Positions 5,295 to 37,389 of a DNA stretch of 38,137 bases are shown in pieces. The notes beneath the pieces are model-generated. The model was not told the origin of the DNA and made no database searches. It saw nothing but the letters and a program-made list of their open reading frames with translations. A program made the position numbers and the translations under genes. The DNA comes from Candidatus Saccharimonadota bacterium. Lineage in GTDB: Bacteria; Patescibacteriota; Saccharimonadia; Saccharimonadales; Saccharimonadaceae. The stretch covers positions 1 through 38,137 of the forward strand of contig JAFWIQ010000001.1 of the NCBI GenBank assembly GCA_017511865.1. Direction: 5' to 3'. Positions within the stretch are counted from its first letter, which is position 1; every line of letters starts with the position of its first letter.

Positions 5295-7514
5295 TCAAAA
5301 CTTTAGTGCATTTTTCTTGTTGCGTATACGTTTGTGGATATTAAATACGACTATAGATGCCGTGATTATGGTGATGATGGAAATATTAATGATGGAGTGG
5401 GTTGGGCTGTTGTTTGTGTCGGTGCTGCTACCGGTGTTTGGAACAACTATAAACTCATCGTCTTCGTCTTCATCATCGTCTTCGTCTGGGGCGGGAGTGC
5501 TATTTTCTTCCCAAACCGCATAGATAGTCTTGTCAGCAGTTAAAGTAATTTCTGCTCCTGGCTGATAGGTGGCAGTGGTGGCAGAAGCATCATTTGCCCA
5601 ACCGAGGAAAGTATAACCTGCGCGAGTAGGTGTAGTGTCGCTGATGTTGATAGAGCAAGAGGTTTCAGCTCCAGAAATAGTGCAAGTTTGATCATCTGGA
5701 ATATTGCTTGCATCATCGGTATCGTTAGCATCGTAGCTTAGGGTAAAGGTGCTAGTATTTTCTTCCCAAACCGCATAGATAGTCTTGTCAGCAGTTAAAG
5801 TAATTTCTGCTCCTGGCTGATAGGTGGCAGTGGTGGCAGAAGCATCATTTGCCCAACCGAGGAAAGTATAACCTGTGCGAGCAGGTGTAGTGTCGCTGAT
5901 GTTGATAGAGCAAGAGGCAGTAGTGGTGCCAGTAGCGATAGCAGCGATGCAATTTTGCTCTAGAGTAGTACTCTCGTCGTAATTTTGATTTAGTGTTAAT
6001 ATGTGGGTTTGGATGTCTGACATTGCTTCATAACCGCAGTATGTTGTGCCGGCAGCATTGATAATGCAGCTGATTCCGTCTGCAGAATGGCCGGTGTATA
6101 GCTTGACGGCTTTATCTAGGGCATAGTATTGATATCTGGTCGCGTCGAAGGTAATTCTGTAACCACCAAGATTGTCTCTATATGTGGCAATGGAATAAGT
6201 AGAAGGTTTGTTTAGGTTAACTTCGTTGATGGCATCGGGGGCATTATTTAGGTGGTGATGAGCGGCTTGATAGATGGTGATATTGTTGACGGCTGCTTCA
6301 CCAAAATCGGTTTTGATTCTTTTGGCGATGTTGGTTTCACTTGGGACTTTGATGGTAGGATTAATGTTCGAAGGGTTAATTTCTCCGGTTTCGGAATTGT
6401 AAAAATCTTCTGGATTTTCGTAAAGCACCGTGTATCCGTTGGCGTAGATTCCGTCTTCTGGTGTTAGTCTATACCCAATATTTTCTAGATCGCTTGGGAA
6501 ATAGGCGTATTTTTTGGTATTAGTATTGTCTGTTACTTCTGCAAAAACAGCTAGGGAATTGCCGTTTGAATTACAATTTGAAACATTGCTGCTGACGTAT
6601 GCATAAAAGTATCGATCTAGCCCTCGTGCATTGTCGTTTTTTCGTATAAATTCGGGAGTAGTTTTGAGCTCAATATTTGGATATGTGCTTCCGTCAAAAT
6701 AGATATATTGGCCATTAAATTTTGTTATGGAGGCAGAGCTGTCTATTTGTTCTTGGCTTGAATATGCCGCGAATCTAACCATGTAACCTTTTTGGCAGGT
6801 TTGATTTTCGAAGACATCAGAAGTGTTGTAAATGTATAGATTTAGATAGTCGCCGATTGGGAATTTTTGTCCTTCTGTTAAATAGGAAAAATCATCATCT
6901 TGATAAACACTGGTTCCGACATTGTCGGTAGTGTAGATGTTGGCGCTAGCTGCTTTGGCGGCATTAATGATGGTCTCGAATTTATATGAGTTTAGATTGT
7001 TTTCTTCGTTGGTTTTTTCATATTTGACGATAACATTTTTTACTTCGAATCTACTTGTGTCTTCAAGTAGGCTTCTCGCATTGCCTACGTGGTCTGAGTG
7101 GAAATGAGAAATGATGAAATAGTCGATTGTGACTTTTTCTTTTTGTTGGTAGTCGTATAAATTATTGTAGATGGCATCTAGAAACTCGGAGTTTTTGCTG
7201 GCCGTATCGATAAGAACGTACTTGTCGTCGAATGTTTTTAAGATGATTGTTTCGTTGGAACGGTAATCGGTGCCAGATGGTGTAGTGTTGGGGAATTTGA
7301 CTTCGAACATGTTGTCGGATGACAAAAACGAGCCATCTGACGAGCCTGAGGTGGCGTCGGTGATTTCTTGTAAGTGAAGTGTGGCGGTGCTGGCGATAGT
7401 GAAAAATGTGGTTATGAGAATGAGGCTCAAATATTTGAGGTTGTGAGATAATTTTTCGCCTCTACCTAAAGATCCATATATAGATCTTTTAGACCTAAAA
7501 ATTTTGTTTTTCAT
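5295..7514 (-). CDS. Secreted metallo-beta-lactamase-fold protein with InlB-type repeats and C-terminal wall/membrane anchor
   Basis: 739 residues. A basic N-terminus and hydrophobic stretch (about 26-46) form a signal peptide or anchor. Next comes a metallo-beta-lactamase domain with SHFHSDHVGN (residues 136-145), the HxHxDH zinc motif of the hydrolase superfamily; order and spacing resemble ComEC-like or secreted MBL hydrolases, substrate unknown. Two Listeria-Bacteroides (InlB B / Flg_new) repeats follow, each with GYTFLGWANDASATTATY and ending TIYAVWEEN, then an acidic Asp/Glu linker, VPNTG, a hydrophobic helix and a basic tail (HKRIRNKK). VPNTG plus helix plus basic tail resembles a sortase signal (LPxTG variant); no sortase is in the window. 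The ATG has AAGG 10 bases upstream and a 17-spaced promoter further up. The duplicated repeat is nearly identical in DNA, so the array is young. Confidence 0.82.
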   Translation of the reverse strand: MKNKIFRSKRSIYGSLGRGEKLSHNLKYLSLILITTFFTIASTATLHLQEITDATSGSSDGSFLSSDNMFEVKFPNTTPSGTDYRSNETIILKTFDDKYVLIDTASKNSEFLDAIYNNLYDYQQKEKVTIDYFIISHFHSDHVGNARSLLEDTSRFEVKNVIVKYEKTNEENNLNSYKFETIINAAKAASANIYTTDNVGTSVYQDDDFSYLTEGQKFPIGDYLNLYIYNTSDVFENQTCQKGYMVRFAAYSSQEQIDSSASITKFNGQYIYFDGSTYPNIELKTTPEFIRKNDNARGLDRYFYAYVSSNVSNCNSNGNSLAVFAEVTDNTNTKKYAYFPSDLENIGYRLTPEDGIYANGYTVLYENPEDFYNSETGEINPSNINPTIKVPSETNIAKRIKTDFGEAAVNNITIYQAAHHHLNNAPDAINEVNLNKPSTYSIATYRDNLGGYRITFDATRYQYYALDKAVKLYTGHSADGISCIINAAGTTYCGYEAMSDIQTHILTLNQNYDESTTLEQNCIAAIATGTTTASCSINISDTTPARTGYTFLGWANDASATTATYQPGAEITLTADKTIYAVWEENTSTFTLSYDANDTDDASNIPDDQTCTISGAETSCSINISDTTPTRAGYTFLGWANDASATTATYQPGAEITLTADKTIYAVWEENSTPAPDEDDDEDEDDEFIVVPNTGSSTDTNNSPTHSIINISIITIITASIVVFNIHKRIRNKKNALKF
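5501..5917 (-). repeat. Direct repeat pair of 162 bp encoding two InlB-type repeats
   Basis: 5501-5662 and 5756-5917 are direct copies with offset 255. By eye they differ at two positions (gcgcgagtagg against gtgcgagcagg). The offset is a multiple of three, so gain or loss of a unit keeps the frame. Confidence 0.88.
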
Positions 7515-8970: not shown

Positions 8971-9055
8971 GCTCGGATGGCGGAACTGGTATACGCGTTC
9001 GACTTAAAATCGAATGGAGAAATCCGTGCGGGTTCGATTCCCGCTCCGAGCACCA
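8971..9055 (+). tRNA. tRNA-Leu (anticodon UAA)
   Basis: Acceptor GCTCGGA pairs with TCCGAGC; discriminator A and CCA are encoded (9052-9055). The anticodon loop CTTAAAA is at 9003-9009 with TAA at 9005-9007. A long variable arm and canonical T-loop (TTCGATT) fit leucine. A perfect TATAAT at 8957-8962 with an upstream TG (TGATATAAT) is the promoter. Confidence 0.96.
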
Positions 9056-9275
9056 AGATATGAAAAGAAGCCACTTGTGGCTTGTTTTTATATCTTTAGC
9101 GAGATCAGGGAAGAATTTCCCGCTCCGAGCACCAACACCTGATGGTGCACAAAAAATTGGAATCGTTTTTCAAATCGATTCCCGCTCCGAGCACCAAGAT
9201 ATGAAAAGAAGCCACTTGTGGCTTGTTTTTATATCTTTAGCGAGATCAGGGAAGAATTTCCCGCTCCGAGCACCA
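9034..9275 (+). repeat. Tandem 101-bp repeats carrying copies of the tRNA-Leu 3' end
   Basis: 9034-9134 and 9175-9275 are identical by eye, offset 141. Each contains an 18-bp copy of the tRNA-Leu 3' end (ttcccgctccgagcacca) at both of its ends, giving four copies in all: 9038-9055 (in the tRNA), 9117-9134, 9179-9196 and 9258-9275. Extra copies are preceded by short self-pairing sequence (ggaagaatttcc or gaatcg/cgattc), so each could fold a T-arm-like hairpin. Between the copies lies a long hairpin. No protein gene is convincing here; a translated frame through the repeat is an artefact. Confidence 0.9.
9056..9095 (+). terminator. Long hairpin directly after tRNA-Leu (terminator), copied at 9197-9236
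   Basis: Left arm 9056-9074, loop tt, right arm 9077-9095: 17 of 19 positions pair as Watson-Crick, with one G-U and one mismatch. The gccac/gtggc core followed by gttttt gives intrinsic-terminator form. It begins at the base after the encoded CCA. An exact second copy is at 9197-9236. Confidence 0.75.
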
Positions 9276-9291
9276 TTTTTTGTTGGTGGTT

Positions 9292-23654: not shown

Positions 23655-25268
23655 ATGAATAAAATGTTTTCATTGCTGAGAGCGTCGATGTCGGAGGGGA
23701 TGAATATTTTTCGAATCAGCGGTAGAAAACAATCAAAAGTAATGAGGATTGGGTTGCCAATTATTGTGGCTGTGCTTTTGATGTTTTCGGTAGGTTTTTA
23801 TGCAGATATGATGATGGAGCCACTGGCGGAAGTCGGTATGGAATTCGTAGTTTTGACTTTGTTTGTGGTTATTGGTGCGCTGTTCATTCTCGTGGAAGGA
23901 GTATATAAAGCAAGTGGGTTATTGTTTAATTGCCGTGATGACGACATGCTACTTTCCTTACCGATAAAAAAGTCGACCGTGTTGTTTGTGCGGATTTTGA
24001 AATTCTATTTTTTTCAGGTGATGGTAAATGCCTTAATATTGTTGCCGGCGATGATTGCGTATGCGATGAGGGTGGATGTGGGGGCAACTTTTTATTTGGT
24101 GTCGGGAATGGCGTTATTGGTTTTGCCGATGTTGCCGGTGGCGATTGCGTGTGCGATAGGTAGCGTGATTGCGTTTTTTTCGGCGAAGTTTCGGTTCAAA
24201 AGTTTTGCGCAAATTATCATAACGACTTTATTTCTTTTGGTGTTAATGTATGCGTCGTTTAATATGCAAGACATTGTAAGATTGTTGGCGGAAAATGCAA
24301 CAAGCGTTAATGAAATTATTACGAAATTATATTTTCCAGCGGGAGAATATGTTGGTCTAGTGGCTGATTTTAAGGGCTTGGATTTGGTGAAGTTTCTTGG
24401 CATTAATTTTGGGATTTTTGGAGTTTTGGTGGCTATACTTGGTAGCGTATATTATAAAATTAACTCGCGCGTGAAGGTGGTGAAGAGCGATATCCGGAAA
24501 AAAGAATATAAAATTAGGGCTACATCTCCGCTACTAGCCTTGATAAAAAAAGAGGCTAGTAAGTTTACAAGTTCGCCGGTCTTTGTAATAAATGCAGGAT
24601 TTGGCTTAGTTTTATTTGTGGTGGCCTGCATATTGATATGCGTTAATATTCAAGAAATATTAAAAATGTTTGCTGGGTATGGGGTTGGGGTGTCGGCGGA
24701 ATTTATTATTGGGAATATGCCGGTGGTGCTATTTGGTTTGGTGGTTTTTGCTTCGATGACGTCGTCGATTACAAGCTCGATGATTTCGCTTGAGGGAAAG
24801 TCGTTTAATATTTTAAAGAGTTTGCCAGTAAGACCCGTGACGATTATTTTGGCAAAAGTTTTGACAGCGGTGTTTATTATGGTGCCGTTTATTTTGTTGG
24901 GGGATTTGATTATGTTTGTTAATTTCGAGTTTAGTGTTTGGCAGATTGTGCTGATTTTGGTCGCTTCGGTAATTTGGCCACTAGTAGCGGAGATGGTTGG
25001 GATAATTGTAAATTTGAAGTATCCAAAAATGGATGCAAAAAATGATACCGAAGTAGTGAAACAAAGTATGAGTTCGGCGGTGTCGGTGTTCGTGGGGATT
25101 GGGGTGGTTGGTGTGATGGTTTATTTGATATATATGGCGATTAAGAATGGGTTTGACATGACTTTGTTTATTGCGATGGGGACTTTGTTTGGTGCGGTGA
25201 TTTTGGCTGGTCTTTTGATTTATTTGAAGCTTAAGGGTGCGAAGGAGTTTAATTCTATCAATGTCTGA
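23655..25268 (+). CDS. ABC-2 type transporter permease
   Basis: 537 residues, about 12 hydrophobic helices in two groups of six with a charged central stretch (YYKINSRVKVVKSDIRKKEYK). Residues 1-35 are basic and cytosolic. LLFNCRDDDMLLSLPIKKST and MISLEGKSFNILKSLPVRPVT, one in each half, resemble the coupling motifs of the two-domain exporter permeases next to such ATPases in Firmicutes. Starts directly after the ATPase stop (TAA then ATG). Its last eight bases overlap the start of uvrD (ATGTCTGA). Substrate not predictable. Confidence 0.85.
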   Translation: MNKMFSLLRASMSEGMNIFRISGRKQSKVMRIGLPIIVAVLLMFSVGFYADMMMEPLAEVGMEFVVLTLFVVIGALFILVEGVYKASGLLFNCRDDDMLLSLPIKKSTVLFVRILKFYFFQVMVNALILLPAMIAYAMRVDVGATFYLVSGMALLVLPMLPVAIACAIGSVIAFFSAKFRFKSFAQIIITTLFLLVLMYASFNMQDIVRLLAENATSVNEIITKLYFPAGEYVGLVADFKGLDLVKFLGINFGIFGVLVAILGSVYYKINSRVKVVKSDIRKKEYKIRATSPLLALIKKEASKFTSSPVFVINAGFGLVLFVVACILICVNIQEILKMFAGYGVGVSAEFIIGNMPVVLFGLVVFASMTSSITSSMISLEGKSFNILKSLPVRPVTIILAKVLTAVFIMVPFILLGDLIMFVNFEFSVWQIVLILVASVIWPLVAEMVGIIVNLKYPKMDAKNDTEVVKQSMSSAVSVFVGIGVVGVMVYLIYMAIKNGFDMTLFIAMGTLFGAVILAGLLIYLKLKGAKEFNSINV

Positions 25269-27360
25269 TGAAATTTTGGAAGGATTAAACTCGCGCCAGA
25301 GGGAGGCGGTGGAGATATTGGAAGGACCGGTGTTGATTTTGGCTGGTGCTGGTTCTGGAAAAACTAAGACTTTGACACATAGAATTGCGAATTTGATTGC
25401 CCATGGAGTGCAGCCATCTAATATTCTCGCTGTAACGTTTACGAATAAGGCTGCGAAAGAAATGCGTGAGAGGTTGTGGTCGCTTATATCTCGTTCAGGG
25501 CCGCGTCCGTCCGGCCCGTCGCCACGGGCGGACGGCGCTAACTCTCGCGCTGCCGCGCTCCGAAATATCCCGAACCGAGACATAAGCGACCAACCCCCAC
25601 GGAGTTTCATGCCTTATATGGGGACGTTTCATGGAATTGCGGTGAGGATTTTGAGGATTGAGGCTGATGCGATAGGGCTAGACCGAAATTTTGTAATTTA
25701 TGATACGGATGATCAAATTTCTTTGATTCGGCGAATTATGCGAGATTTGAAATTGTCGGATAATAAAAATTTAAAGCCAAAATCGATTCAATCGATTATC
25801 TCGGGCGAAAAAAATCAAGGAAATGGGCCAGATGAGTATGCGGCGAATGCATTTTATCCGAATCAAAAAAACATTGCAAAGATTTTTAGAAAATACGAAG
25901 AAGAGAAGACAAAAGCAGGGGCATTGGATTTTGATGATTTGTTGTTGAAAGAATTGGAATTATTACAAAAACATCCGGAAATTAGAAAAAAATGGCAGGA
26001 AAAATTTAAGCATATTTTGGTTGACGAATATCAGGATACTAATCATGTGCAATACAATATAGTAAAATTGCTTACCAATGATAAAAAGAATGTTTGCGTA
26101 GTGGGTGATGATTGGCAGTCTATATATTCGTGGCGAGGGGCGGATTTTATGAATATCTTGAATTTTGAAAAGGATTTTCCGGGGGCAAAAGTAATAAAAT
26201 TGGAGCAGAATTATCGTTCGACAGGGAATATTTTGGAGGCGGCACAAAAAATAATTAATGAAAATAAGACGCGGACGGAAAAGATTTTGTTTACTGAAGC
26301 GGGGAAGGGAGAGCCGGTAGATATAGAATCTTTGAGAGATGAGACGGCGGAGGCAAACTATGTGGCGCTTTCTATTTTGAATATGCAAAAGGAATATCCA
26401 GATTTTAGTGATTTTGCGGTACTTTATCGGACCAATGCGCAATCATATACTTTTGAAAAAGCGTTTATTGATTTGCATATTCCGTATAAGATTGTGGGTG
26501 GGGTGAGATTTTATGATCGGAAGGAAGTGAAGGATGTGTTGGCGATTTTGAGGTTAATCGTAAACCAACGCGATAAAGTGAGTTTGACTAGAGTAGTGCA
26601 AAATGTGTTGTCGGGAATTGGGGAGGCGTCCTTGGCGAAAGTTTTGGTAGCGATGGATGCGATAGGTGGCACGGAGCCGCTACTTGATGCGGATTTGCCA
26701 GAAGTATTAAAAGCTGGTAAAGCTAAAAACGCCTTGCTTAGATTGGTGAATTTTGTGCGAAAAAATTTGGGAAGGAAAGACCCTGGAGGTATTGTAAAAG
26801 ATGCTGTGGAATATTTTGATTTTAAAGTTTTGACCGATGACGGAACGCCAAGTGGTGATGAGCGGATGGCAAACCTTGAGGTTTTGGCGGCGAATGCGGC
26901 TACATATGGTGATTTGGAAGATTTTTTGGCGGATGCAAGTTTGATGTCGTCGGTGGATGAGAGTTCGGGCAAAAATGCTGTGACTTTGATGACGATGCAT
27001 GCAGCTAAAGGTTTAGAGTTTCCGGTGGTATTTATGGTGGGGATGGAAGAAGGGCTTTTTCCTAGTTCGCGAGCGGCCGAAGAGCAGGAGGGGTTGGAGG
27101 AAGAACGGCGGTTGGCGTATGTGGGAATGACGCGGGCAATGCGAAAGTTATTTTTGACATATGCGGCATCTAGATATGCCTATGGGAGTAGAAACTACAA
27201 TATGCCATCGAGATTTTTGATGGAGCTGGGGTACAATCCGTATGGGTCGTCTGGATATAGGGACGAAGACGGTGATGGATTTACGGATGGGGGTGGTTTT
27301 GACGATTTTAGTGAAGGCGATTTTGATCCGTTTCCGGAAGATTTGCCGATTTACGAGTAG
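25261..27360 (+). CDS. uvrD: UvrD/PcrA-type DNA helicase (with in-frame palindromic element)
   Basis: SF1A 3'-5' helicase acting in repair and in clearing protein from DNA. Motifs in order: Q motif LNSRQREAV, motif I LAGAGSGKTKTLTHRI, Ia VTFTNKAAKEM, TFHGIAVRIL, II ILVDEYQDTN, III VGDDWQSIYSWRGA, IV LEQNYRS, V MTMHAAKGLEFPVVFM, VI EERRLAYVGMTRA. 699 residues with ATG at 25261, which overlaps the permease stop; AAGGAG is 13 bases upstream. Residues about 73-111 (RSGPRPSGPSPRADG and on) have no counterpart in the family and coincide with the GC-rich palindromic element, between motifs Ia and Ib of domain 1A. The C-terminal 40 residues are Gly/Asp-rich. Confidence 0.94.
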   Translation: MSDEILEGLNSRQREAVEILEGPVLILAGAGSGKTKTLTHRIANLIAHGVQPSNILAVTFTNKAAKEMRERLWSLISRSGPRPSGPSPRADGANSRAAALRNIPNRDISDQPPRSFMPYMGTFHGIAVRILRIEADAIGLDRNFVIYDTDDQISLIRRIMRDLKLSDNKNLKPKSIQSIISGEKNQGNGPDEYAANAFYPNQKNIAKIFRKYEEEKTKAGALDFDDLLLKELELLQKHPEIRKKWQEKFKHILVDEYQDTNHVQYNIVKLLTNDKKNVCVVGDDWQSIYSWRGADFMNILNFEKDFPGAKVIKLEQNYRSTGNILEAAQKIINENKTRTEKILFTEAGKGEPVDIESLRDETAEANYVALSILNMQKEYPDFSDFAVLYRTNAQSYTFEKAFIDLHIPYKIVGGVRFYDRKEVKDVLAILRLIVNQRDKVSLTRVVQNVLSGIGEASLAKVLVAMDAIGGTEPLLDADLPEVLKAGKAKNALLRLVNFVRKNLGRKDPGGIVKDAVEYFDFKVLTDDGTPSGDERMANLEVLAANAATYGDLEDFLADASLMSSVDESSGKNAVTLMTMHAAKGLEFPVVFMVGMEEGLFPSSRAAEEQEGLEEERRLAYVGMTRAMRKLFLTYAASRYAYGSRNYNMPSRFLMELGYNPYGSSGYRDEDGDGFTDGGGFDDFSEGDFDPFPEDLPIYE
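25477..25592 (-). mobile_element. In-frame GC-rich palindromic element in uvrD (copy 1)
   Basis: 116 bp with inverted outer arms (tggtcgcttatatctcg at 25477-25493; complement of cgagacataagcgacca at 25576-25592, one mismatch) and an inner hairpin built from ccgtccg/cggacgg and cccgt/acggg. A 70-bp core (25498-25567) equals 35381-35450 of the aminopeptidase gene in reverse complement, with one mismatch by eye. The reading frame of uvrD stays open through it. It resembles Rickettsia palindromic elements in habit. Boundaries come from the inverted arms and are approximate. Confidence 0.85.
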
Positions 27361-34883: not shown

Positions 34884-34896
34884 GTTGGAGGTAGGC

Positions 34897-37389
34897 GTGG
34901 AAAAATTATTGGATTATTTTGTGCCAGAAAAGTATATACTGGATATTGCGATTGATAAGCATGCAAAGACGATTGATGGGGTGGTTGTGGTTTTGGGCGA
35001 AGTTTTGCAGGAGACGGTGAAGTTTCATGCGGTTGATTTGAAAATAACAGACGTACTGGTGAATGGTAAAAAAGTCAAATTTGAGGCGGATGGAGAGGTG
35101 CTGGAGATTCCTGGAACGAAGCTAGGCGAAGCGGAAATTACTATATATTATAATGGTACGTTGAATGAAAATATGGAGGGGGCGTATTTGTCTACCTATG
35201 AACATGAAGGCAGAACCGAAACGATTGTGGCGACGCAGTTTGAATCGCATTATGCGCGAGAGGCGTTTCCATGTATTGATGAGCCAGCAGCCAAAGCGGT
35301 GTTTGAGTTGACACTGTCTGTGCCGGATACGGAGGATATGATTTTGGCTAATACGCCAGAGGCTAAAGTTCAACTCGGGGTATTTCGGAGCGCGGCAGCG
35401 CGAGAGATAGCGCCGTCCGCCCGTGGCGACGGGCCGGACGGACGCGGCCCCGAGGTGAATTTTAGCTCTGGTGGTAAAACAATATCGTTTGAACCGACGC
35501 CAAGAATGTCAACATATTTACTAGCTTGGGTGATTGGGAAATTTCATGGTAAGACAGTGACAAATAAACATGGCGTAGAAATTACGACTTATTGCGCTTT
35601 AAATCAAAACGTAGATGCGGTGGATTTTGCAAATGAAATTGCGGCTAAGAGTTTGGAGTTTTATGATGATAATTTTGGGGTGCCATATCCTTTAAAAAAA
35701 TTGGATCAAGTGGCTTTGCCAGATTTTGAAGCAGGTGCGATGGAAAACTGGGGATTAGTAACTTATCGCGAGTCGATGTTGCTTGTTGGGGAATCTGCGA
35801 CTTTGGGAGATAAAAAAAGCGTAGCAATGACGGTGGCGCATGAGTTGTCACACCAATGGTTTGGTGATCTAGTGACGATGGCATGGTGGGATGATTTGTG
35901 GCTGAATGAATCTTTTGCTTCAATAATGGAGTATTATGCAGTAGATGCTATCCATCCAGAATACAAAATTTTTGAGGGATTTTTTACGCGAGATTGCTGT
36001 GCGGCGCTACTGAGAGATGCTTATTTTGGCGTGCAGTCAGTACATCAAGAAGTGAAGGACCCGGCGGAAATTGCAACATTGTTTGACGCTGCAATTGTGT
36101 ATGCAAAAGGGGCAAGGTTGATGCTGATGGTGATTAGGTTGATGGGATGGGAAAACTTTTGCAAAGGAATTAAAGATTATTTTAAGAAGTTTCAATATAA
36201 AAATACAGTTGGCGATGATTTGTGGAATAGCCTGAAGCCGTATGCAGATTTTGATCCAAAGAAATTGGTACATGCGTTTATTGATGAGCCTGGTTATCCG
36301 GTAATTACGAATGAGGCTGGGGATTTTGATAAGTTTTCGCAGAAGAGATTTTTGCTTGACGGGCCTTTGGTGGAGGAAGAGTGGCCGTTGCCAGAGATTG
36401 CGGAAGACATGTCTGGGCATTACATTTTGAATTTGAGCGAAAAAGAATTTAAACAGCGTTTAGAGAATTTTGACGAGTTGGGGATTGAAGAAAAATTGCG
36501 GTTACTGATTGATCGGGATTTGGTTACGAAGTCTGGATTACAAAGTGCGACATCTTTGGTTCCGTTGGCTTTGGAATTTAAAAATAACGATTCGGCTTCG
36601 GTGTGGAATAAAGTTGCAGGGTTGATGGGCAATTTGGGTATATATTTTGATGATGATTCGGAAGAAGAAAAGTTATTTAAGAAATATGTTTTGCAGTTGG
36701 TTGATGAAAAATTAAACGAAGTGGGGATAAAAACGAGACAAGGCGATGATGAAAATATGATTCGTCTGCGAGCGAATTTGATGGGGTTGGATTATTTTGC
36801 GGAGGACGTGGATAGATTTAAGATTCTCGCAAAAATGTATGATGATGATTATAACAAAATGGATTCGGAGGTTCGGAGTGATATTTTGAGCGCAAAGGTC
36901 TATTTGGAGCCAGAAATTGTAGATGAGTTTTTGGAAAAATATAAGACAATAGTGGATCCGGATGTGAAATTTGACTTCTTGGCGGCGGCGACTTTGGTAA
37001 AGGATGAGAAATATTTGGAAAAAATGCTGAATTTGCTTGGAGATATTAAGATTGTGAAGCCACAAGATCAGTTATATTTATTTGTTTATCTTTATCGGAA
37101 TCCCAAGTCCAAAAAACAGACGTTTGAGTGGTTGACGAAGCATTGGAAGCTGGTGAAAGAGATGGGCGGAGAAAAAACGCTTAGCGATTATCCAATGTTG
37201 GTTGCAAGGTTAGCGAGAACGGAAGAAGAATTGGAAAAATTTGTGGAGTTCTTTGGGCCAATGCGAGAAGATTCGGCTTTGAAACGGGCGATTGAAATCG
37301 GCGAAAATGAGATTCGGGCAAGGGTAAAATTGATTCGTGAGAATAAAGACGCGGTATATAAAACTTTGAAGAAATATACTATTGTATGA
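34897..37389 (+). CDS. pepN: M1 family aminopeptidase (PepN/ERAP-like), with in-frame palindromic element
   Basis: Removes N-terminal residues from peptides, probably finishing products of FtsH and other proteases. 830 residues. N-terminal beta domain, then GAMENWGLVTYRE near residue 280, zinc site HELSHQWFGDLVT with NESFA downstream, and the long helical C-terminal domain. GTG at 34897 is preferred since GGAGG lies five bases upstream; an in-frame TTG four codons earlier overlaps the ribosome site. Residues about 156-190 (VFRSAAAREIAPSARG and on) are not family sequence; they are encoded by the same GC-rich palindromic element found reversed in uvrD. They fall between the beta strands of the N-terminal domain, where a loop could accept them. 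Confidence 0.94.
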   Translation: MEKLLDYFVPEKYILDIAIDKHAKTIDGVVVVLGEVLQETVKFHAVDLKITDVLVNGKKVKFEADGEVLEIPGTKLGEAEITIYYNGTLNENMEGAYLSTYEHEGRTETIVATQFESHYAREAFPCIDEPAAKAVFELTLSVPDTEDMILANTPEAKVQLGVFRSAAAREIAPSARGDGPDGRGPEVNFSSGGKTISFEPTPRMSTYLLAWVIGKFHGKTVTNKHGVEITTYCALNQNVDAVDFANEIAAKSLEFYDDNFGVPYPLKKLDQVALPDFEAGAMENWGLVTYRESMLLVGESATLGDKKSVAMTVAHELSHQWFGDLVTMAWWDDLWLNESFASIMEYYAVDAIHPEYKIFEGFFTRDCCAALLRDAYFGVQSVHQEVKDPAEIATLFDAAIVYAKGARLMLMVIRLMGWENFCKGIKDYFKKFQYKNTVGDDLWNSLKPYADFDPKKLVHAFIDEPGYPVITNEAGDFDKFSQKRFLLDGPLVEEEWPLPEIAEDMSGHYILNLSEKEFKQRLENFDELGIEEKLRLLIDRDLVTKSGLQSATSLVPLALEFKNNDSASVWNKVAGLMGNLGIYFDDDSEEEKLFKKYVLQLVDEKLNEVGIKTRQGDDENMIRLRANLMGLDYFAEDVDRFKILAKMYDDDYNKMDSEVRSDILSAKVYLEPEIVDEFLEKYKTIVDPDVKFDFLAAATLVKDEKYLEKMLNLLGDIKIVKPQDQLYLFVYLYRNPKSKKQTFEWLTKHWKLVKEMGGEKTLSDYPMLVARLARTEEELEKFVEFFGPMREDSALKRAIEIGENEIRARVKLIRENKDAVYKTLKKYTIV
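35364..35464 (+). mobile_element. In-frame GC-rich palindromic element in pepN (copy 2)
   Basis: 101 bp. Outer arms taaagttcaactcgggg (35364-35380) and ccccgaggtgaatttta (35448-35464) pair with one G-U and one mismatch; the inner ccgtccg/cggacgg hairpin is as in copy 1. Core 35381-35450 matches copy 1 reversed with one mismatch in 70. The outer arms differ from those of copy 1, yet are self-complementary in each. The frame is kept. Confidence 0.87.

Follow-up and report, generated by a model that had tools for sequence, protein, structure and literature searches.

The window analysed here comprises the 38,137 nucleotides of contig C4, part of a genome of 600 kb with 86% completeness, and contains two genes that carry hairpin-forming inserts, one coding for a uvrD/pcrA-type helicase and one for an M1-family aminopeptidase (Table 1). 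Judged by homologues of the aminopeptidase, chiefly of ruminant-gut origin, the genome belongs to Ca. Saccharibacteria and is near Ca. Nanosyncoccus. A sequence-only reading of the window had reported that a 70-bp core in uvrD (25498-25567) recurs in inverted orientation in the M1 gene (35381-35450) with one mismatch, and that both copies are palindromes lying in frame within their host genes. Indeed, 69 of the 70 positions are identical, and the inverted repeat pair as a whole spans 79 nt (25495-25573 and 35375-35453, 96% complementary). The range given for the uvrD element, 25477-25592, coincides exactly with the outer boundary of the palindrome, whose arms are 17 nt long. Both copies fold as strong hairpins (z-scores of -5.1 to -8.2; 0 of 200 shuffled sequences were as stable) and both open reading frames are intact. 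The insertion points had been placed where the protein families have no residues, and structure alignments agree with this: UvrD residues 85 to 127 face only residues 81 to 88 of PcrA (approximately 41 extra residues against 6 in PcrA), and M1 residues 164 to 197 face residues 144 to 147 of the tricorn factor F3 (approximately 32 extra residues against 2 in F3). Both inserts are located at loops that are almost without residues in the solved homologues.

Table 1 Features of the two focal copies and their host genes (positions in the window).
Feature	Position	Strand	Evidence or remark
uvrD/pcrA-type helicase, host gene, 707 aa, frame open across the insert	25237..27360	+	Pfam PF00580 and PF13361; PcrA/UvrD structures
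uvrD 5' arm TGGTCGCTTATATCTCG, native uvrD sequence, encodes conserved L-W-x-L	25477..25493	+	Empty orthologues also encode LW/F-x-L/I-L
uvrD type-A core, three-way junction, inverted relative to the gene	25494..25575	-	Model R1 match 25478-25591, 116.8 bits
uvrD 3' arm CGAGACATAAGCGACCA, reverse complement of the 5' arm with one mismatch	25576..25592	+	Missing from empty orthologues
M1-family aminopeptidase, host gene, 834 aa, frame open across the insert	34885..37389	+	Pfam PF01433/PF17900
M1 5' arm CCAGAGGCTAAAGTTCAACT	35356..35375	+	
M1 type-A core, on the gene strand, 69/70 identical to the uvrD core	35376..35452	+	Model R1 match 35358-35470, 119.9 bits
M1 3' arm AGGTGAATTTTAGCTCTGG, complementary to the M1 5' arm	35453..35471	+	

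The conserved part of these type-A elements is only a core of ~80 nt, which forms a three-way junction. The strand reading CGGAGCGCGGCAGCGCGAG folds into a basal stem, a first hairpin (hp1, CGGA-GCGC-GGCA-GCGC-GAG) and a long second hairpin (hp2), which CCCGT-GGCG-ACGGG closes. From 16 copies a covariance model, R1, was built, and base pairs were counted over 112 distinct copies. Hp1 and hp2 are kept through compensatory changes, for example from C-G to G-C in 26 of the 112 copies. In the basal stem all or most Watson-Crick types occur at every pair, because the stem sequence differs at every site. The motif of hp1, CGGA-stem-GAG, is common to types A and B and to copies in other CPR families.

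R1 matched 153 of 174 congeners, often with 10-20 copies each and with at least 21 at the upper end; the source genome has at least 12, the genomes being mostly MAGs. This rumen-associated genus of Saccharibacteria carries hundreds of such hairpin inserts, which lie in frame and in either orientation across the genus, so that both the proposed family of dual-orientation, coding-compatible palindromes in a CPR genome and the expected many copies per genome were found. An order-level search gave no matches outside the same family, while a sample of the phylum gave weaker matches in three genomes of two other families. In the copies inspected outside Saccharibacteria, either the hp1 motif recurs or the fold is a related three-way one, and one of them (L329) has perfect arms of ~27 bp. 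These observations suggest a wider Patescibacteria family of type-A-like junctions; the distantly related copies with long perfect arms, in other CPR families, lie at L329 2035-2139 and L328 2021-2121. Phage records, plasmids and viral contigs contained nothing that matched the core, and Rfam returned no family at either focal copy and none over a copy at 20 scanned loci with intergenic copies. An assembly error is ruled out by the occurrence in hundreds of independent assemblies. Chance origin was also rejected, because a codon-block-shuffled control contained no inverted repeat with a score of at least 13, compared to 41 observed in 0.9 Mb, and because the core recurs across the genus.

The main point, which the sequence-only reading overlooked, is the nature of the outer stems: they differ from site to site and derive from the target gene. 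At each site the core is closed by a stem of 15-30 bp that is self-complementary there and unrelated to the stems at other sites. Complementarity was scored by aligning the left arm with the reverse complement of the right arm. Among 132 unique copies the score of a copy's own arms had a median of 15.0, compared to 5.5 for mismatched arms, and 126 of the 132 exceeded the 99th percentile of the control, in which arms of different copies are combined; the R1 score includes the stem, so that this test is biased toward paired stems and partly circular. Free of this bias are 19 copies that BLAST retrieved when only the core served as query, all of which exceeded the 95th percentile of the arm control. 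Within one genome, identical cores are found in different genes with unrelated arms (tatD and mnmA in G150, uvrD and leuS in G157). If the inserts were over-read and simply MITEs or REP-like elements of the usual kind, whose terminal inverted repeats are conserved, their size, multicopy occurrence, hairpin and partly intergenic location would fit, but the terminal stems are not common to the copies (left-left arm similarity across copies was 5.5, the background level) and a REP-type transposase is lacking, which makes this explanation highly improbable.

Comparison of orthologous sites revealed where the stems come from. The uvrD loop, measured between the motifs NKAAxEM and P(Y/F)MGTFH in 30 species, was empty in 15 (39-72 nt, best inverted repeat 3-7) and filled in the other 15 (144-219 nt, best inverted repeat 9-22), with no intermediate sizes. 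The sequence-only reading had named as counting against it a core found nowhere else and a segment carried by all relatives; neither was observed, and the orthologues vary in presence and absence of the segment. The 5' arms of filled uvrD alleles encode a conserved RLWxLL, of which W-x-L-L is also encoded by empty alleles, and the 3' arms code for unrelated peptides (RQHIAEAP, RELLVANP, RIDHIEVSD, REHLVTNST) that track the nucleotides of the 5' arm. For trmD, the A-R-E-F-A (AR(E)FA) that empty alleles carry natively is encoded in the 5' arm; the 3' arm repeats this arm in reverse complement and directly precedes the native HYII. Thus, both uvrD and trmD have one arm that copies the adjacent native sequence in reverse complement. 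A fixed polarity of the native arm was considered but found no support, since it lies upstream in uvrD and trmD but apparently downstream in tatD.

The sites did not contain long palindromes before insertion, because the empty orthologues have none. That the core enters long palindromes already present in genes is therefore the least probable of the readings considered; the native inverted repeats of 4-8 bp at some empty sites (trmD L227, nifS L202) speak for it, but the scores of empty and filled uvrD loops and the shuffled control, in which long inverted repeats are lacking, speak against it. Short native inverted repeats may nevertheless pre-exist at target sites. The one clean pair is nifS L197 and L202, in which a 69-nt insert with another core lies between GGACGG and GTCCATG, both flanks align, and the insertion point is a native 4-bp inverted repeat, GGAC..GTCC. 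Here the stem outside the core has only 7-8 bp, of which 4 are native, and the GTCC repeat fits either a 4-bp target duplication or the native inverted repeat. Other pairs of empty and filled sites were compared at ~80% identity, and an insertion separating very close relatives was not seen, the best uvrD relative being 81% identical. Among pairs of 87-94% identity, L075 and L076 share no alignment around the copy and the alignments of L064-L066 stop short of it; in the strain pair L073/L101 the insert is present in both.

In at least eight genes (those for UvrD, M1, TrmD, TatD, MnmA, LepA, Obg and NifS) both orientations of the core were found at one site across species, which would reflect flips or independent insertions, without a fixed native side. 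At six orthologous sites (M1, UvrD, TatD, MnmA, NifS and LepA) the two arms of a copy are more alike than the same arm is between species; in trmD the two values are near equal, one arm there being mis-cut. These six sites show signs of arm homogenisation over time, a known outcome of template switching.

The 132 unique copies comprise 101 that lie in frame inside open reading frames, mostly of housekeeping genes and in either orientation, and 31 that are intergenic; none was seen to split a gene. Host genes, named from conserved motifs with a Pfam check for uvrD and M1 only, are uvrD, M1, trmD, nifS, lepA, tatD, mnmA, leuS, alaS, ligA, obg-like, tgt, der and tsaD; the tallies of host genes and native sides are based on motif matching, not on trees. 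In most copies four of the six frames of the core are open; every one of the six is used somewhere, but two dominate (51 and 28 cases) and yield peptides rich in S, P, R, A and G, which are probably disordered. This frame usage indicates that selection acts through the protein. A functional RNA element in cis, i.e. a stem-loop that acts on the mRNA by pausing, RNase processing or stability with the pairing of the variable stem under selection, could explain the very strong folds and the thorough covariation of the stem. Nevertheless, it is very unlikely, since the copies in unrelated genes use either orientation and every reading frame, any given site is without the insert in most congeners, the arms around identical cores at two genes are unrelated and no Rfam family matched.

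In-frame deletion remnants (L221, L158), inserts nested at the tips of existing hairpins (L063, L261, L282) and a partial tandem copy in the M1 gene of L093 show that the elements insert, grow and decay in a life cycle. Intergenic hairpins nested in outer hairpins of unrelated sequence were also seen in several species (L056 21223-21394, L084 19357-19526, L062 14855-15011).

A second core of 25 nt, ACACTCRAGGSCGTTCGSCCRAGCTTATG, is unrelated in sequence and has the same architecture, with perfect site-specific arms of up to 25 bp. It was found with the pattern ACTCRAGNNCGTTCGNNYRAGCTTA, for which 78 matches were listed in 39 of 170 genomes, compared to none for the reversed pattern. Examples are both genic and intergenic (L309/L052 7901-7979, L070 5180-5244, L099 15756-15824, L298-L327), and of 30 copies chosen without regard to arms, 24 exceeded the 99th percentile of the arm control. 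A further family of longer hairpins encodes (G)LEFSSTSYAG..PAEPSLRDEPVG..RNIRVENSNQ and occurs in the same loops of TrmD (L168, L172, L182, L217), UvrD (L345, L336) and NifS (L195). The uvrD loop hosts four unrelated cores, namely A, B, the 25-nt core and the GLEFSSTSYAG-encoding core.

Taken together, a mobile core is shared between sites, the complementary stems are specific to each site, the inserts are retained in frame and the core occurs in both orientations. The inserts are probably selfish, mobile coding palindromes that resemble Rickettsia palindromic elements (RPEs) and whose stems are made by fold-back template switching at the target. In this model, the structured core of ~80 nt, with its two hairpins on a three-way junction, would be copied to new sites by an agent that moves it. 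Synthesis at the target would enter the hairpin core, fold back on its own nascent strand, copy 10-25 nt of adjoining host sequence in reverse and, once the new end pairs with the original template at a short inverted repeat already present, return to it. The product would have the order host-arm / core / inverted host-arm with a long stem unique to each site, and we favour fold-back template switching because it is the simplest process that gives this order. Later template switching would maintain the complementarity of the arms and could flip the core. Survivors would be insertions that keep the frame in tolerant protein loops, or intergenic ones, and the former would be translated as ~25-45 extra residues, as their open frames suggest, and later decay by in-frame deletion. 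More tentatively, with somewhat less than an even chance, the inserts may constitute a new class of Patescibacteria mobile elements: folded cores without conserved ends, a stem made de novo by copying the target in inverted form, several unrelated cores on the same route and new elements that favour the tips of existing hairpins.

The conserved core fold and the related junctions in other CPR families suggest that a dedicated factor recognises the core, which weighs against pure template switching, since the latter needs none. The main rival to template switching is therefore a dedicated enzyme, a transposase or a reverse transcriptase acting in trans, that would integrate the core after recognising its fold in ssDNA or RNA and prime synthesis on the target strand with the element's own end, so that the inverted arm arises during integration. 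Besides the fold, which beyond the sequence is kept by compensatory changes, and the common hp1 motif, the reverse transcriptases (RVT_1) encoded in 39 of 60 congeners argue for this. They number up to four per genome, are mostly open frames of ~380-400 aa (e.g. in G007, G058 and G059, and L297 in G162) and possibly belong to diversity-generating retroelements. But genomes that are near-complete and free of reverse transcriptases are rich in copies (G111, 20; G130, 17; G128, 14; G003, G004 and G125, 13 each; G150, 11), Y1 (RAYT) transposases were found in only 3 of 100 congeners, the second core shows the same stem behaviour without sequence relation, and matches in viral contigs, phages and plasmids are lacking. 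In the source genome, neither a Y1 transposase nor a reverse transcriptase was found. We consider the enzyme unlikely as the maker of the stems, and a Y1/REP transposase or reverse transcriptase as mover was rejected for lack of co-distribution with the copies.

In the literature, RPEs figure as a trait of Rickettsia and Wolbachia. Later accounts (PMC2229807, PMC10969869) of the work on RPEs (Ogata et al. 2000, 2002) describe in-frame palindromic repeats in conserved genes, and in the former the terminal inverted repeats of 12 bp belong to the repeat. The RPEs and the coding palindromes of Wolbachia are, like the Saccharibacteria inserts, multicopy hairpins of ~100-150 bp, in frame in genes and also intergenic, in reduced genomes of host-dependent bacteria; most R1 matches have 110-115 nt (z of -5 to -8), and the 101 of 132 copies spanned by long open reading frames leave only intergenic ones. 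The proposed likeness to RPEs holds for behaviour and palindrome form, but not for the conserved terminal inverted repeats reported for RPEs, which are absent here; instead, the stems are site-specific and come from the target gene, a distinction drawn from the published description of RPEs. The host phylum, Patescibacteria, and the several unrelated cores with one architecture are further differences.

Template switching is known to homogenise the arms of inverted repeats and to invert spacers, also in coding DNA (PMC8604942), and perfect hairpins arise in a single template-switch event (PMC8794818). Quasipalindrome correction by template switching (Ripley model; PMC8604942, PMC8794818, PMC7202029) likewise gives reverse-complement copies adjacent to their source but brings no shared mobile core, whereas the fold-back product proposed for Saccharibacteria contains the same ~80-nt core at many unrelated sites. 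Bacterial MITEs and RAYT-mobilised REP-BIMEs are also small, non-autonomous palindromic repeats, but the Saccharibacteria copies have no conserved terminal repeats and 97 of 100 genomes lack a Y1 transposase. Coding palindromes in mitochondria of Nematomorpha (PMC6649704) show that long inverted repeats can be tolerated in essential coding sequence; there, conserved protein sequence is encoded by both arms and the abstract mentions no mobile core, whereas in Saccharibacteria a native arm is joined by an inverted copy that was added. Earlier reports of such elements in Saccharibacteria or other Patescibacteria were not found in the open-licence literature. To our knowledge, a mobile element that builds its stem from host-gene sequence copied backwards has not been described.

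RPE-like behaviour is now seen in an unrelated phylum, at the scale of 153 of 174 species, with an anatomy that hints at how the palindrome may form. Since the host gene can be identified as the source of one arm, the origin and spread of coding palindromes become testable. Essential proteins of reduced genomes repeatedly accept inserts of ~30 residues at the same loops; these natural insertion sites are usable for protein engineering, and knowledge of them helps to read MAG annotations correctly.

The window contains further repeats. Two direct repeats of 162 nt (5501-5662 and 5756-5917, 99% identical, 255 nt between) lie inside a minus-strand ORF (5295-7514) and are a recent in-frame duplication. 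A direct repeat of 114 nt (9034-9147 and 9175-9288, 95% identical) has its start within the 3' portion of a tRNA gene (8971-9052). At the contig end (37704-38137), three copies of a ~131-150-nt repeat overlap a minus-strand ORF of 129 aa, and this array may extend beyond the contig.
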